DNA of 64,000 nt, taken from Ancylothrix sp. D3o. GTDB lineage: Bacteria; Cyanobacteriota; Cyanobacteriia; Cyanobacteriales; Oscillatoriaceae. Numbering within the stretch: position 1 is the stretch's first letter; each line of letters starts with the position of its first letter. The notes beneath the pieces were generated by a model. It ran no database searches. It saw only the letters and a program-made list of their open reading frames with translations, and was not told the DNA's origin. The position numbers and the translations under genes are program-made. Positions 46,279-51,195 of this stretch are shown here, one piece after another. The stretch lies in the NCBI RefSeq assembly GCF_025370775.1, contig NZ_JAMXEX010000013.1, positions 62,001-126,000 on the forward strand, written 5' to 3'.

Positions 46279-46722
46279 ATGCAAATTAAAAATAATTTAG
46301 AAATGGGAAAAGTTTTTGCGACTCTAACAATTATTAATCGAGCCGACCAAATTCGGGCAGAAGATGGGACAATTTCAGCAGACCAAGTTCGCTCAATAAC
46401 GCTCAAAAATGTTTTGGTGGATACGGGTGCGACGACTTTGTGTTTGCCGGCGGATGCTATCGCTAAATTAGGGCTGAAGCTTCTTAAGGAGGTGGATGTA
46501 GCAACGGCGATGGGTATTGGTAAGGCTCGGATTTTTCGGGATGCTACTATATCTATGTTTGAGCGTGAGGGAACGTTTGAGTGTTTGGAGTTACCGGGAG
46601 GTGGAGATGCACTTTTGGGGGTGATTCCTTTGGAGGCTTTGGGGTTAGAAATTGATTTAAAGAATCAAGTTTTGAAGCCTTTACCGATTAGTCCAACGGA
46701 AACTTATTTGACGATTTTGTAG
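46279..46722 (+). CDS. Retropepsin-like aspartic protease domain protein
   Basis: 147 aa. The half-pepsin fold is marked by LVDTGATTLCLP (catalytic Asp of the DTGA motif, about residue 52) and a second hydrophobic-Gly flap LLGVIPLEALGLEID. Stand-alone clan AA proteins of this size occur widely in cyanobacteria, and dimerise to form one active site. Substrates are unknown. A GGAGGG-type ribosome site lies about 7 nt upstream. Confidence 0.87.
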   Translation: MQIKNNLEMGKVFATLTIINRADQIRAEDGTISADQVRSITLKNVLVDTGATTLCLPADAIAKLGLKLLKEVDVATAMGIGKARIFRDATISMFEREGTFECLELPGGGDALLGVIPLEALGLEIDLKNQVLKPLPISPTETYLTIL

Positions 46723-47297: not shown

Positions 47298-47351
47298 ATG
47301 GCAATTTATTTTATAGATACTAGAATGACCACTTATCAAAAAAGTTTTTAA
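47298..47351 (+). pseudogene. Truncated PIN-domain toxin (vapC remnant)
   Basis: It starts 1 bp after the antitoxin stop with MAIYFIDT, the first strand and catalytic Asp of PIN/VapC toxins (normally followed by SALVKRY-like residues). From codon 9 the reading becomes RMTTYQKSF and stops. The break, about 47321, coincides with the stop codon of the minus-strand zinc-ribbon gene (47320-47322). The rest of the toxin, about 120 codons, is missing. Confidence 0.7.
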
Positions 47352-47748
47352 TAATTTCTTGAGCTTTTGATACTGTTATACCCAAAGCTTTTCCTATTTC
47401 ATAACTAATATCAAAAATCCATTCTTTAAATGAATTTTGTGATTTAGAAACAATACTTCTTTCATAACTGTCCATTTCGTTCAACTTTTGTAGTAAACGC
47501 TGCCTTAATAATTGAGTGGTTGAAAGAGCATCTTCTACTTCGGAAGGATAAAATTCATATCCACAATAACAGTAAAATTTACTATCAAGGATATACCACT
47601 GAGCGCTACAAGATTCACATTTAACTTGTCTTTGATAAGGTTCAACCAACAATTGGCCATTAAAAACACAATCTTTATGATAATTTTCCCCCCATTGTTT
47701 ACCACAACTGGGGCATTTAGGAAAAGGAAATGTTATCCATTCGCTCAT
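47320..47748 (-). CDS. Zinc-ribbon protein with shared C-terminal module
   Basis: 142 aa. The N-terminal 62 residues carry two or more Cys pairs (CPSC 12-15; C27; CESC 44-47; CYC 60-62), so a zinc-ribbon or double zinc finger. The C-terminal part, residues about 80-126 (RQRLLQKLNEM, VSKSQNSF, IFDISYEIGKALG), aligns without gaps to the 92-aa protein upstream, with 15 of 47 identities by eye. Third gene of the GTPase operon, behind a terminator-like hairpin. Function unknown. AT-rich compared with its neighbours. Confidence 0.75.
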   Translation of the reverse strand: MSEWITFPFPKCPSCGKQWGENYHKDCVFNGQLLVEPYQRQVKCESCSAQWYILDSKFYCYCGYEFYPSEVEDALSTTQLLRQRLLQKLNEMDSYERSIVSKSQNSFKEWIFDISYEIGKALGITVSKAQEIIKNFFDKWSF

Positions 47749-47778
47749 AATGATTACTTTTAAGGAAAAAAAACTTGA

Positions 47779-47807
47779 CCTCTACATACAAAACAATAAT
47801 GTAGAGG
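47779..47807 (-). terminator. Terminator or attenuator inside the GTPase operon
   Basis: On the minus strand, a perfect 9-bp stem CCTCTACAT/ATGTAGAGG with an 11-nt loop is followed by TCAAG and eight T residues. It sits between the 92-aa gene and the zinc-ribbon gene, so only a fraction of transcripts may reach the latter, or it has its own promoter. Confidence 0.75.
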
Positions 47808-47830
47808 TATTAAGATAATCAAAGCAGAGT

Positions 47831-48109
47831 TTAACGTAATCCAGCTTTCCAGCCTTCAGACCATCCGTCACCAATTGATTTGATTATATCTCTGCCAAAA
47901 CCAACTACTTCTCCCACAATATAGCCAAACAGTTTAGCAATAGACTTAAATAAATCGGCTACAAAAGCCCTTAAACTTGCTTCCGATTTTGCTGCTATCC
48001 TCAAGTCAGCATCGCTCATAGATTTGATTTCGTCCAATAATCTTTGTCTAATTTTATCTATATCTTCGCTGGGAATGTTAGTTTCATTAGGAACATTTCT
48101 CATTCTCAT
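47831..48109 (-). CDS. 92-aa partner protein of the GTPase
   Basis: Minus-strand AGGAG lies 8 nt before the ATG, a strong ribosome site. Residues about 19-65 (RQRLLDEIKSM, AAKSEASLRAFVADLFKSI, GYIVG) form the module also found at the end of the zinc-ribbon protein. The C-terminal half has a hydrophobic, possibly amphipathic or membrane-interacting helix (IAKLFGYIVGEVVGFGRDIIKSIG) and a Trp/Gly-rich end. It lies 50 bp after the GTPase. No known family. Confidence 0.72.
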   Translation of the reverse strand: MRMRNVPNETNIPSEDIDKIRQRLLDEIKSMSDADLRIAAKSEASLRAFVADLFKSIAKLFGYIVGEVVGFGRDIIKSIGDGWSEGWKAGLR

Positions 48110-48159
48110 TGCTAAATCTCCTTATTTTTTATTTAACTTCATTTTGACTAGATATTCTA

Positions 48160-49098
48160 TTAAAGTCCCTGTTTTTTTAGCCACGCTAAAAATGCTTTTT
48201 GATCTCCAGCAAATTTAGCAAACTCTTCCGGTGGCATTTTATCAACAATATCAGACATCTTTCCAGGTTGAAGTGGTTGGTTATTTGCTCTTTCTCGTCT
48301 TTTTTCTGGAGGTAATAGCTGAGGATCAACTAACTCCAGAAAATCAGCCAATGCTTTACGAGATGCAACAACCCATCTTCTTTTATTAGGGACAGCATCC
48401 ATCATGGCATCAAAAAGCTGGGGTAAATGGTACCGTTTATGCGCTGAATATCCTACAATTTTTCCTTTCCATGTGGGTAATACCTCACGAATTTTTCTTT
48501 TAACATCATGGATTCGTCCTTTAATGTTTTCTTCTTGTTCTTCGCTAGGTAAATTCGCTAAAGGATGCCAAGCATTTTCCCCCGGATACACTAGCTCTAC
48601 TTTATTTAAGGCAATGACCATCCGATCTAAAAGCCTAGGATCAATTGCTTTGAGTTCTCTTTCTAAATATTGCTGTACAGAAGCGATAGCCCGATTTTGT
48701 GCATCTAAAATCCATAAAGCAACATCTACATCTTTTAAGACTTTTTCGTAAAGTGCAATATGTTCTCTTTGTTTTAATTGACTTTCACCTAATCCAGGCA
48801 TATCATAAGCAACTAATGCTCCCTTAACTCCTTCTACTTTATTGAATGAGACTTCTACTCCTCGTACCTCTTGGGTGCAAGCCTCGATATGACTCACCTC
48901 AAAACCTGCATTAAAAAGTGCGTTGAGGGTAGAGGATTTTCCTACTCCCGTTTCACCAATAAAAGCAAAACGAGGAGGAGGTTCATTATCTACCTTTTCT
49001 TCAATCATCTGGTAGATTTTTTCAAAATCATCTTCAGATATCTTCTGATCGCCCAGAATGTCTCTTGCTAAACCTTGGACTAAACCTCGTAAATCCAT
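48160..49098 (-). CDS. Dynamin/Era-like GTPase
   Basis: 312 aa. P-loop GTPase: G1 GETGVGKSS (48-56), G2 Thr near residue 75, G3 DMPG (99-102), G4 NKVE (165-168, Asp of NKxD replaced by Glu), G5-like GYSAHK. A helical N-terminal segment of about 40 residues and a C-terminal extension of about 80 residues with a small terminal helical motif (MPPEEFAKFAGDQKAFLAWLKK) flank it. It resembles YjdA/YfjP-type or IRG-like GTPases. First gene of a three-gene operon and divergent from the STAND ATPase. Possible role in membrane or conflict systems is inference. Confidence 0.85.
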   Translation of the reverse strand: MDLRGLVQGLARDILGDQKISEDDFEKIYQMIEEKVDNEPPPRFAFIGETGVGKSSTLNALFNAGFEVSHIEACTQEVRGVEVSFNKVEGVKGALVAYDMPGLGESQLKQREHIALYEKVLKDVDVALWILDAQNRAIASVQQYLERELKAIDPRLLDRMVIALNKVELVYPGENAWHPLANLPSEEQEENIKGRIHDVKRKIREVLPTWKGKIVGYSAHKRYHLPQLFDAMMDAVPNKRRWVVASRKALADFLELVDPQLLPPEKRRERANNQPLQPGKMSDIVDKMPPEEFAKFAGDQKAFLAWLKKQGL

Positions 49099-49206
49099 AA
49101 TATTTTTCAGAACAGTAAAGCGGAATCTTCTCGAATGCTAAATCCTGCGTTCCCAACACTGCCACCCGAAAGGAACTTATATTCTGCCTTCTTTTGTAAC
49201 AAATTT

Positions 49207-49259
49207 TTAACCAAAAGCCTGAAAAAACTTGATTTTGTTGGTTAAATCTAAGCTATAAT
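49207..49259 (+). promoter_or_regulatory. Divergent promoter region with 8-bp inverted repeat
   Basis: Between the GTPase and the STAND gene (190 bp), TATAAT at 49254-49259 is a good -10 for the STAND gene, about 30 bp before its ATG. TTAACCAA (49207-49214) and TTGGTTAA (49238-49245) form a perfect inverted repeat at the -15 to -50 region and may be an operator shared by both directions. Confidence 0.5.
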
Positions 49260-49288
49260 AGCCGAAACTCCCACCCCGCCTTGAGCCT

Positions 49289-50665
49289 ATGACTATTCCA
49301 GATATTACAGAAGTTTTACAATTGGTAGATGAGTTAGTTCACAAACAAACAGGCGAACACTTAGACGATCTCCAAAAAAAAGTTATTAAAGGACTGTGGG
49401 AAGGAAAAAGTTACACAGCAATTGCAGATAAACATAAATATAAAAGTTCAAATTATATCGGAGATGTTAGTCGTAAGTTATATAAAATTTTGTCATCCCA
49501 GCTAGGAGAAGATGTTAGCCAATCTAATTTTTGTTGGACTATAGAAAGATTCATTAATAAATCTAAATCTAACTCAGTAAGTCAAGTTCAGCAAGGCTTG
49601 ATTAATAATAGCCATATCAGTTTATGTTCTAAGAAGACTCAAGATAATTCTGAAAATAATGAAGAGAATTATCCCAATAAATCCTACCACGATTTAACCC
49701 TAGCCCCAAAAATAACCCATTTCTACGGACGCGAAAAAGAACTCAAAACCCTATCTGATTTCCTGCTCCAACAAAACACCCGCCTCCTCTCAGTCTTAGG
49801 ATTACCCGGAATTGGCAAAACCACCCTCGTTAAACAATTTCTTGACCAAAACCGGCAACACTTTGATATCCTAATCTGGAAAAGCATCAAACTCAGCCCA
49901 TCCTTAGATACCATCATTAATGAAATTATCACCGCTACCAACCCCGACCCCCTGATAGCAGACAACCAATTAACGCAACTTTTAAAACTTTTCTCTCAGC
50001 AAAAATGTTTAATCGTCCTAGATGACGTGCAAGAAATATTCACCGGCCAACAATTCACCGGCCAATATAAAACGCAATATAAAGACTATAAAACCCTCTT
50101 CACAAGAACCACAGAAGTTGAACATCAAAGCAGCTTAATCTTAATTAGTCAAGAACAATGTCAAGAAATGCACGGCTTAGACGAAGACTTCTATCCTGTT
50201 AAATGCTTAGAACTAGAAGGCTTAGACAACACCGGTATCCTCAAAAATCAAGGCTTAAAAGATGAGGAAAATTGGCTAAAAATAATTGATTTATATGAAG
50301 GAAATCCCCGATACTTAAAAGATATTGCCGGTTTAATTAAAAATGTCTACTGTGGCAGAGTTTCCGAATTTTTAGCAGAAGATAGCCTGATTCTCACACA
50401 AAATATAAAATATTGTTTAAGTGAATTATTCCAGCGATTATCCCCCGGCGAACAAGAGATAACTTTAAAATTGAGCCAATCGAAAGAGCCGGTTTCTAGG
50501 GATGATTTAAGACAAAATTTAGAACTGTCTTCAAGCGATTTAATTAATGGATTATGCTCTTTAACCAGACGCTATTTACTCAAAAGAATCGAAGGGGAGA
50601 AAGTAGTATTTAATTTAGGGCCGGTTTTCAAAGAATATGTAAGGTTGTCAAAATTGAGAGATTAA
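49289..50665 (+). CDS. Compact NB-ARC STAND ATPase with VMAP-type HTH
   Basis: 458 aa. The N-terminal 85 residues (LQLVDELVHKQTGEHLDDLQ, GLWEGKSYTAIADKHKYKSSNYIGDVS) match the HTH found at the start of vWA-MoxR-associated (VMAP) and NB-ARC proteins of cyanobacteria. NB-ARC follows: FYGREKEL (145-152), Walker A GLPGIGKTT (171-179), Walker B CLIVLDDVQ (240-248), a sensor region (SSLILISQEQ), then winged-helix (LSPGEQEITLKLSQ...SRDDLRQNL). It stops there, with no WD40 or TPR repeats. STAND proteins switch by ATP-driven oligomerisation. Divergent from the GTPase. Confidence 0.88.
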   Translation: MTIPDITEVLQLVDELVHKQTGEHLDDLQKKVIKGLWEGKSYTAIADKHKYKSSNYIGDVSRKLYKILSSQLGEDVSQSNFCWTIERFINKSKSNSVSQVQQGLINNSHISLCSKKTQDNSENNEENYPNKSYHDLTLAPKITHFYGREKELKTLSDFLLQQNTRLLSVLGLPGIGKTTLVKQFLDQNRQHFDILIWKSIKLSPSLDTIINEIITATNPDPLIADNQLTQLLKLFSQQKCLIVLDDVQEIFTGQQFTGQYKTQYKDYKTLFTRTTEVEHQSSLILISQEQCQEMHGLDEDFYPVKCLELEGLDNTGILKNQGLKDEENWLKIIDLYEGNPRYLKDIAGLIKNVYCGRVSEFLAEDSLILTQNIKYCLSELFQRLSPGEQEITLKLSQSKEPVSRDDLRQNLELSSSDLINGLCSLTRRYLLKRIEGEKVVFNLGPVFKEYVRLSKLRD

Positions 50666-50725: not shown

Positions 50726-50995
50726 TTAAGGAAAGTAATTATAAAATTCCTTACGATGTAGCACACGGAAAAAAATAACGACTTCGCCATCAAATGTTAA
50801 ACCAATGCGATAGTCACCTACCCGAATTCGATAAGCATTTTCATAGCCTTGTAATTTTTTTACTTGTCTTAATTCTTCAAAGTCTGGCGTATTCGGTATC
50901 TCTTCAAAGACAAGGGTTTTAATTGCTCCAAAAATCGGCGTACTTTTAAGAGATTTTAAGTCTTTGATAAAACTAGGGAGATACTCTGTATTCAC
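50726..50995 (-). CDS. Type II toxin, RelE/ParE superfamily
   Basis: 89 aa. RelE fold signatures are FIKDLKSL, the helix-strand switch VKKLQGYENAYRIRVGDYRIGLTFDGEVVIFFRVLHRKEFY, and a C-terminal Tyr. Its start overlaps the antitoxin stop by 4 bp (ATGA), as in co-translated TA pairs. Expected action is mRNA cleavage on the ribosome, but ParE-like activity cannot be excluded. Confidence 0.9.
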   Translation of the reverse strand: MNTEYLPSFIKDLKSLKSTPIFGAIKTLVFEEIPNTPDFEELRQVKKLQGYENAYRIRVGDYRIGLTFDGEVVIFFRVLHRKEFYNYFP

Positions 50996-51195
50996 TGTTT
51001 TTCAAGTTCTGTAAGGGCTGCTTCTAAGTTTAAAGGTGTTTCGTCTTTTACTTCCATCATCGCACGCACAAGTCCTTCATCTTCAATGGCTTCAACAAGA
51101 CGCTGATAATCATTGAAATCTATCACGACTTTACGAATATGTCCGTCGGTGTCTAGGATTAATTCTTGGGCAAAGGGGTAATTATCTGCTTTCAT
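50992..51195 (-). CDS. Antitoxin of the RelE-type toxin
   Basis: 67 aa, acidic. It begins with a strand pattern LILDTDGHIRKVVIDFNDYQRLVEAIED, typical of small Phd/RelB-like cyanobacterial antitoxins, and ends in an acidic helix that should wrap the toxin. First gene of the pair, overlapping the toxin by 4 bp. Confidence 0.85.
   Translation of the reverse strand: MKADNYPFAQELILDTDGHIRKVVIDFNDYQRLVEAIEDEGLVRAMMEVKDETPLNLEAALTELEKQ

Follow-up and report, generated by a model that had tools for sequence, protein, structure and literature searches.

In DO-GTPase/GAP1 systems, a small helical adaptor domain (GAAD) is proposed to couple effectors, and the DO-GTPases have N-terminal zinc ribbons, according to the available portions of Kaur et al. 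2020 (PMC7159879). In effector-associated-domain (EAD) systems and in bacterial Death-like-domain systems, several proteins encoded at the same locus carry copies of one small domain, together with STAND or GTPase switches, as stated in the available portions of PMC7159879 and PMC8195603.

In this study, we examine a locus in a window of 64,000 nucleotides, the whole stretch of DNA analysed, in which a first-pass annotation had described an operon for a GTPase, a 92-aa protein and a zinc-ribbon protein without a described counterpart. Among the Pfam, NCBIfam and PADLOC models searched, none describes this gene set, in line with that claim, and the PADLOC run that had been proposed as a check yielded a LeoA similarity limited to the G domain. 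None of the titles and abstract openings found in the literature describes the set either. It is undescribed in the sense that no description was found in the literature searched, including the accessible parts of PMC7159879, PMC8195603 and PMC11119718.

Gene order and recurrence

Three genes lie on the minus strand: the GTPase (48,160-49,098; an ORF of 312 aa), S92, a 92-aa helical protein (47,831-48,109), and Z142, a zinc-binding protein with a helical module (47,320-47,748). The first-pass annotation had these ORFs right, to the exact coordinate. Its composition of three genes needs extending, since in cyanobacteria the locus usually has four genes in divergent arrangement, the fourth encoding a STAND NTPase of a subfamily of its own (458 aa; 49,289-50,665, plus strand; NB-ARC, E 9.6e-13). 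All four are under purifying selection, with dN/dS in the pairs tested of 0.06-0.26 for the GTPase, 0.20-0.50 for S92, 0.09-0.33 for Z142 and 0.225-0.371 for the STAND. Beyond the STAND gene lies a ParE/RelB-like toxin-antitoxin pair (50,726-51,195; ParE E 8.5e-8, RelB-like E 9.8e-26), and a small ORF at 46,279-46,722 encodes a retropepsin-like aspartyl protease (gag-asp_proteas, E 1.5e-6). Toxin-antitoxin genes and a STAND ATPase had been taken as the surroundings of the operon; both do adjoin it, but the STAND is its fourth component, whereas the ParE/RelB-like pair merely flanks the window locus and is no common part of the set. Toxin-antitoxin-like genes, judged by eye, flank some other loci.

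The operon is real, and its composition was compared across 17 distinct loci with a near-complete GTPase (the window, L021-L031, L052, L055, L057, L060 and L062), the 16 outside the window having GTPases of 39-87% identity; the GTPase fragments L032/L061 and L063 and the GTPase-less L064 were left out of this count. An S92 homologue lies directly downstream of the GTPase in 17/17 loci. Z142 is found in 12 of the 17 (missing from L021, L031, L055, L057 and L060), so that its place as an operon member holds in most loci but is optional. A divergent STAND gene is present in 13 of the 17, truncated in L031 and not found in L021, L025 and L060; the L062 GTPase begins at base 72 of its contig, leaving no room to see one. 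The order is kept even in a Lachnospiraceae contig. The annotation would have counted the operon as a chance association had homologues of the small proteins never been found beside the GTPase in other genomes. With S92 adjoining it in every locus, chance association is rejected.

GTPases of at least 70% identity occur in 12 of 291 genomes of the order (own genome included), spread over several families, and one more genome has a fragment. A scan of contigs returned 12 loci, six already in the set; the new ones are two from Nostoc, one from an Oscillatoriaceae MAG and a Kamptonema fragment, and, as distant single finds, gammaproteobacterial Thiosymbion (49% identity) and a Lachnospiraceae MAG (39%). 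One copy sits on a plasmid, next to an integrase gene. Because the Thiosymbion S92 was found by tblastn (E 5e-14) and the Lachnospiraceae S92 (E 1.5e-7, among 3,362 ORFs) by a profile lacking that sequence, these distant homologues are independent of models containing them; the Lachnospiraceae zinc-protein homologue has a tblastn E of 5e-13. A search starting from S92 in 386 genomes of the phylum gave a clear S92 in five, adjoining the GTPase in four and forming a remnant beside a STAND gene in the fifth (G058); small genomes gave five further matches, all weak (E 1.7e-4 to 0.0085), which were dropped as chance. In the groups of the two distant finds the system is rare. The GTPase had no match in 249 other Lachnospiraceae genomes at E<=1e-30 or in 298 of that phylum at E<=1e-25. 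At E<=1e-25, the class of Thiosymbion gave matches in two of 273 other genomes; both have no more than distant GTPases (E 2.9e-30 and 7.4e-29), and no S92 or Z142 match lies in the stretches examined around these.

Several copies are decayed. The GTPase gene of L025 (10001-10939) has an in-frame stop, L031 (9184-11444) has lost both N-termini and the divergent promoter, the GTPase of L032 (8671-12707) is truncated and carries what looks, by eye, like a transposase insertion, and L064 (8102-9622) is a remnant without the GTPase. L025 and L031 are counted among the 17 loci. A phage origin for the gene was considered and rejected: the GTPase has no match in 50,697 phage records, and no relative was found in the viral contigs searched, an absence that says little about function.

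The GTPase and the module shared by its small partners

The window GTPase matches both MMR_HSR1 (E 1.2e-13) and Dynamin_N (E 1.4e-7) above the Pfam cut-offs; of the two names in the label dynamin/Era-like, Era-like therefore suits at least equally well. It contains GETGVGKS, DMPG, NKVE and SA, which we take to be G1, G3, G4 and G5. The NKVE motif that had been pointed out is borne out by the alignment, where it is shared with L022, and the other nine of 11 aligned GTPases have NKVD. A profile of the family finds Era, NUG1, Grn1 and Irgb10, an immunity-related GTPase, among solved structures (seven sequences at E<=1e-5). Judged by these relationships, the protein has an Era-type G domain, and we call it Era/IRG-like.

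Z142 has eight invariant Cys/His residues in 12 sequences (C12, C15, H24, C27, C44, C47, C60 and C62), arranged as CxxC, HxxC, CxxC and CxC in a double zinc-site region (aa 12-62; 47,563-47,715, minus strand), which agrees with the zinc-ribbon claim for the third protein. Searches of Pfam, NCBIfam, PADLOC and PHROGs place it in no convincing family, and a Foldseek search with its predicted model (mean pLDDT 76.5) gave no match at E<=0.001. A plasmid-wide family was also considered for Z142 and rejected, searches with the window and Lachnospiraceae proteins giving no match; the Lachnospiraceae protein has a weak FYVE match (E 0.007). An alternative reading is a stress GTPase tied to the ribosome or to RNA, the Era-like enzyme having a zinc-ribbon RNA-binding partner. 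The presence of Era and NUG1 among the solved relatives speaks for it, as do very weak matches of Z142 to a zinc-ribbon family (E 0.035) and to Ribosomal_S27e (E 0.99). We nevertheless rate it very unlikely, given that the window GTPase has no KH match in Pfam, that Z142 is optional and that the constant partner is S92.

For S92, too, the searches of Pfam, NCBIfam, PADLOC and PHROGs gave no convincing family. It is modelled with helices at residues 14-30, 33-39, 43-60 and 71-90 (mean pLDDT 79). The model has no Foldseek match at E<=0.001, and the best VIA Z scores were 3.5 for S92 and 4.0 for Z142. The last predicted helix (aa 71-90; 47,840-47,899, minus strand) is amphipathic and glycine-rich. 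The annotation had suspected such a helix, and the last 30 residues reach a muH of 0.64 that only 2/300 shuffles of the tail equal, the maximum also being reached by 31/300 shuffles of the whole protein. The same region is amphipathic in 11/12 S92 homologues (muH 0.62-0.81; equalled by at most 7/300 tail shuffles and 0-31/300 whole-protein shuffles), the decayed L031 copy having a tail that is not amphipathic against shuffles. Small-xxx-small patterns at G62/G66/G70 and G82/G86/G90 resemble, in our estimation, glycine zippers. These features support membrane action as a predicted role for the tail. They would also suit an accessory membrane-remodelling or envelope-stress machine of cyanobacteria, with the GTPase on the membrane, S92 and Z142 as scaffolds and the STAND as stress regulator, as would the Era/dynamin/IRG-type G domain and the conserved intergenic region. 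We rate such a machine as unlikely. A housekeeping role fits poorly with the patchy spread, the decay in several genomes and the presence of the locus in other phyla.

By profile comparison, S92 and Z142 are homologous over one helical module (hhalign 96.5%, E 7.5e-10), as the first-pass annotation had noticed; it spans about aa 15-69 of S92 (47,903-48,067) and about aa 77-131 of Z142 (47,356-47,520), both on the minus strand. The tail of the GTPase (aa 280-309; 48,172-48,261, minus strand) is probably a third copy. Aligned with small proteins of a second locus type (type B, below; 14 rows), the GTPase tails reach 87% (0/150 shuffles), a value that falls to 50.6% once the Thiosymbion row is removed, against 75.6% for an unrelated STAND segment, and their match to the S92+Z142 profile (25.9%; 0/300 shuffles) is tied by a STAND segment; for these reasons the assignment is no more than probable. 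The whole GTPase profile gave negative results with S92 (3.4%) and Z142 (0.04%) and a weak one with type B (5.1%), and the Lachnospiraceae GTPase is without the tail. Type B proteins match Z142 at 80-84% and S92+Z142 at 71% (0/150 shuffles each) and S92 alone weakly (8.3%, equalled by 2/150 shuffles); the first, four-row type B profile had reached 14% with S92+Z142, and the S92+Z142 HMM ranks type B ORFs at E 0.8-6. When the 14-row type B HMM was searched against 3,362 ORFs (2,521 distinct) from the collected loci, the matches listed at E<=5 outside type B were Z142 modules (E 1.9e-4 to 0.0085; 2.3e-4 for the window copy, aa 82-118) and the Thiosymbion GTPase only (E 8.7e-4), with its best alignment in the C-terminal tail (aa 284-315).

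A shared module and a sporadic distribution could also mark a toxin-antitoxin-like addiction locus, in which S92 is a membrane toxin, Z142 an antagonist with the same module, and the GTPase and STAND regulate them; the flanking ParE/RelB-like pair, and the similar genes seen by eye near some other loci, lean the same way. Yet Z142 is missing from 5/17 loci that keep S92 and the GTPase and so is not an obligatory antidote, and Okeania (L032) keeps Z142 beside its truncated GTPase with S92 absent. We regard this explanation as quite unlikely.

The STAND partner and a second locus type

The locus STAND has its NB-ARC domain at aa 149-278. Its N-terminus (about aa 1-90) is presumably HTH-like, and the only matches there are weak ones of the sigma-factor type, to SigH at E 0.026 and, for the L037 relative, to Sigma70_r4_2 at E 0.15. 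It is among 23 STAND matches in its own genome, some of them partial. In a tree of 23 STANDs, one group (100/100) unites 14 from GTPase loci with C28, a copy from the own genome; the eight outside it are the L037 STAND of type B and seven other copies from the own genome. C28 belongs to the clade but sits beside other genes, and the 10-kb region fetched for it contains no GTPase cassette. Among other own-genome copies (L071-L080), L072 lies beside an AAA ATPase (E 7.7e-27) and small proteins, and L078 has small ORFs and, by eye, an HNH-like protein next to it. The STAND N-terminal region also recurs, with no NB-ARC and beside other GTPases, in L033:5677-6510 (E 4e-14, profile 1-98) and L038:169-1026 (E 4e-17, profile 18-106); the remainder of these proteins looks pentapeptide-like (in L038, E 0.0022 and below cut-off; in L033, no Pfam match).

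The divergent promoter region shared by GTPase and STAND (49,099-49,288, assigned to no strand), when aligned from 11 loci, is invariant in 33 of 205 columns, a figure that carries no chance control. A TATAAT lies ahead of the STAND gene in 12 of the 13 promoters that belong to this locus type, L030 being the exception and L064 being left out of the count since its STAND start is a guess. In the window, this likely -10 box falls within the exact 11-mer palindrome GCTATAATAGC (49,252-49,262, plus strand), which occurs in 4/13 promoters and once in the window against 0.02 expected. Direct repeats were sought in eight STAND promoter regions, with no shuffled control: spacings of 9 bp were found in L112, L072, L074 and L114 and of 10 bp in L078, and the window has none. 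The 9-bp-spaced repeats, resembling CGTACATTT or CGTACTTTT, lie immediately before the likely -10 of HTH-STAND genes from different genomes (L112:1781-1825, L074:6047-6085, L114:6027-6053, L072:5618-5654) and are candidate operators. These promoter features fit DNA binding by the putative HTH-like part of the STAND.

Loci of distant GTPases hold small ORFs with a module-like motif, and a profile of four such ORFs matched 12/291 genomes at E<=0.01. Eight of these are convincing, including the three genomes from which the profile was built; the other four (G005, G036, G078 and G226; E 0.005-0.0097) were dropped as chance. In the regions fetched from the eight genomes, GTPases adjoin the small ORFs, and the plan of this second, distant cyanobacterial type (type B) is an HTH-STAND facing two GTPases and one to three small proteins. 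A divergent STAND is present in all six loci long enough to show it (L037, L108, L109, L110, L112 and L114), L111 and L113 being cut by contig ends, and these STANDs match the STAND profile, which includes only L037 of them, over full length at E 1e-125 or better. Only three of 14 type B small-protein tails clearly beat shuffles for amphipathicity. The second type B GTPase is circularly permuted in 6/6 loci, G4 (NQVD) and G5 preceding G1 (GKxGVGKT) and G3 (DLPG) (L037:8396-9388, L108:5498-6478, L109:3523-4386, L110:5393-6259, L112:2552-3391, L114:4458-5297); HMM segments are swapped in the three permuted GTPases tested, and a relative in L033 has the ordinary order. By eye, the distant GTPase L035:7024-7902 has a hydrophobic C-terminal tail, and a small hydrophobic-tailed ORF (L082:585-800) lies downstream of another.

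Proposed mechanism and comparison with known systems

The reading that we favour, held tentatively and a little short of probable, is a GTPase switch under the control of the STAND, with small effectors borne by an adaptor. In this reading, the HTH-STAND would sense a cue and act at the shared divergent promoter, perhaps also directly on the GTPase. GTP binding would change the assembly state of the Era/IRG-like GTPase, which would gather S92, and Z142 where present, through the shared helical module of 30-55 residues, which is probably also present in its own C-terminal tail. The glycine-rich amphipathic C-terminal helix of S92 would then act at a membrane, and Z142 would bring a second, zinc-dependent output. 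The likeliest role would be in conflict (anti-phage or anti-mobile-element) or in stress-triggered growth arrest. The gene set, its order and its recurrence are observed, as are the homology of the S92 and Z142 modules and purifying selection; we infer that the module serves as a dock, that the STAND controls the promoter, that the set acts at a membrane and that it has a defence role.

In favour of the STAND-controlled switch are the recurrence of S92 (17/17), Z142 (12/17) and the STAND (13/17), the patchy spread with a plasmid copy, the separate STAND clade, the module matches, a second locus type of the same plan and the amphipathic tails. The NTPase-switch look that the first-pass annotation saw in the operon is also supported. 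Counting against this switch are the three loci without a STAND, the C28 STAND beside other genes, the Lachnospiraceae GTPase without a tail, the dependence of the tail match on the Thiosymbion row, the STAND segments that score as high or higher, the weak match of S92 alone to type B and the small number of type B tails that are clearly amphipathic. In Thiosymbion, two TIR genes follow S92 on the same strand after a gap of 339 bp (TIR_2, E 1.7e-12 and 8.4e-28); they agree with an exchangeable effector slot but may be separate from the locus.

Conceivably, though we lean towards doubt, both locus types represent a broad, undescribed class of immune-like systems, mainly from cyanobacteria. An HTH-STAND would face a single Era/IRG-like GTPase or a pair of them, the second being circularly permuted in one type, and the GTPases would recruit small proteins active at membranes. 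Recruitment would run through a homotypic helical module some 30 residues long, a pared-down bacterial equivalent of death-fold adaptors. The locus brings together STAND and GTPase, two switch types known from immunity, in a conserved divergent arrangement whose putative effectors are very small, and two distinct locus types are at hand for comparison. The idea of a tiny shared helix wiring GTPases to membrane effectors is directly testable with four short genes.

The GTPase resembles LeoA of LeoABC in its G domain (PADLOC, E 1.1e-9), but the match covers aa 19-168 of 312 and positions 36-174 of the 559-position profile rather than its full length. With Era and IRG proteins it shares the G domain, Era and Irgb10 being among its best solved sequence matches; unlike Era, it scores far below cut-off on the equivalog NF000908 (34.1 against 237 bits), besides having no KH match, whereas for IIGP the window protein scores below the cut-off of 24 bits (18.4) but the Lachnospiraceae homologue above it (28.6). 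MalT is a STAND transcription regulator, a STAND ATPase with an HTH-like part. The locus STAND combines the same two elements, but its HTH-like part is N-terminal and no repeat domain is among its Pfam matches.

Like DO-GTPase/GAP1 systems, insofar as the available text of PMC7159879 describes them, the locus sets a GTPase switch in a conserved neighbourhood with zinc ribbons and a small helical adaptor; the zinc ribbon is on a separate protein here and is an N-terminal part of the DO-GTPases there. The DO-GTPase model has no match to the window GTPase at E<=1 (PF19993 matches a different gene of the own genome, on C27), GAP1-M (PF20014) has none in the own genome at E<=0.001, and the locus proteins have no GAP1 match in Pfam. 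With EAD and Death-like-domain systems, as far as they are covered in the accessible parts of PMC7159879 and PMC8195603, the locus has in common a small domain repeated on more than one protein, here S92 and Z142, alongside STAND or GTPase switches. It differs in that the module is carried by small proteins that stand alone and, probably, by the tail of the GTPase, and Pfam gave no match of S92 or Z142 to such a domain at E<=1. The logic of the locus thus resembles that of GTPase-centric and EAD systems (Kaur et al. 2020 and its 2021 sequel, in their available portions). The gene set looks like a relative, in spirit, of bacterial immune switches, and we rate it as belonging with the NTPase-switch conflict systems, as a variant of them.
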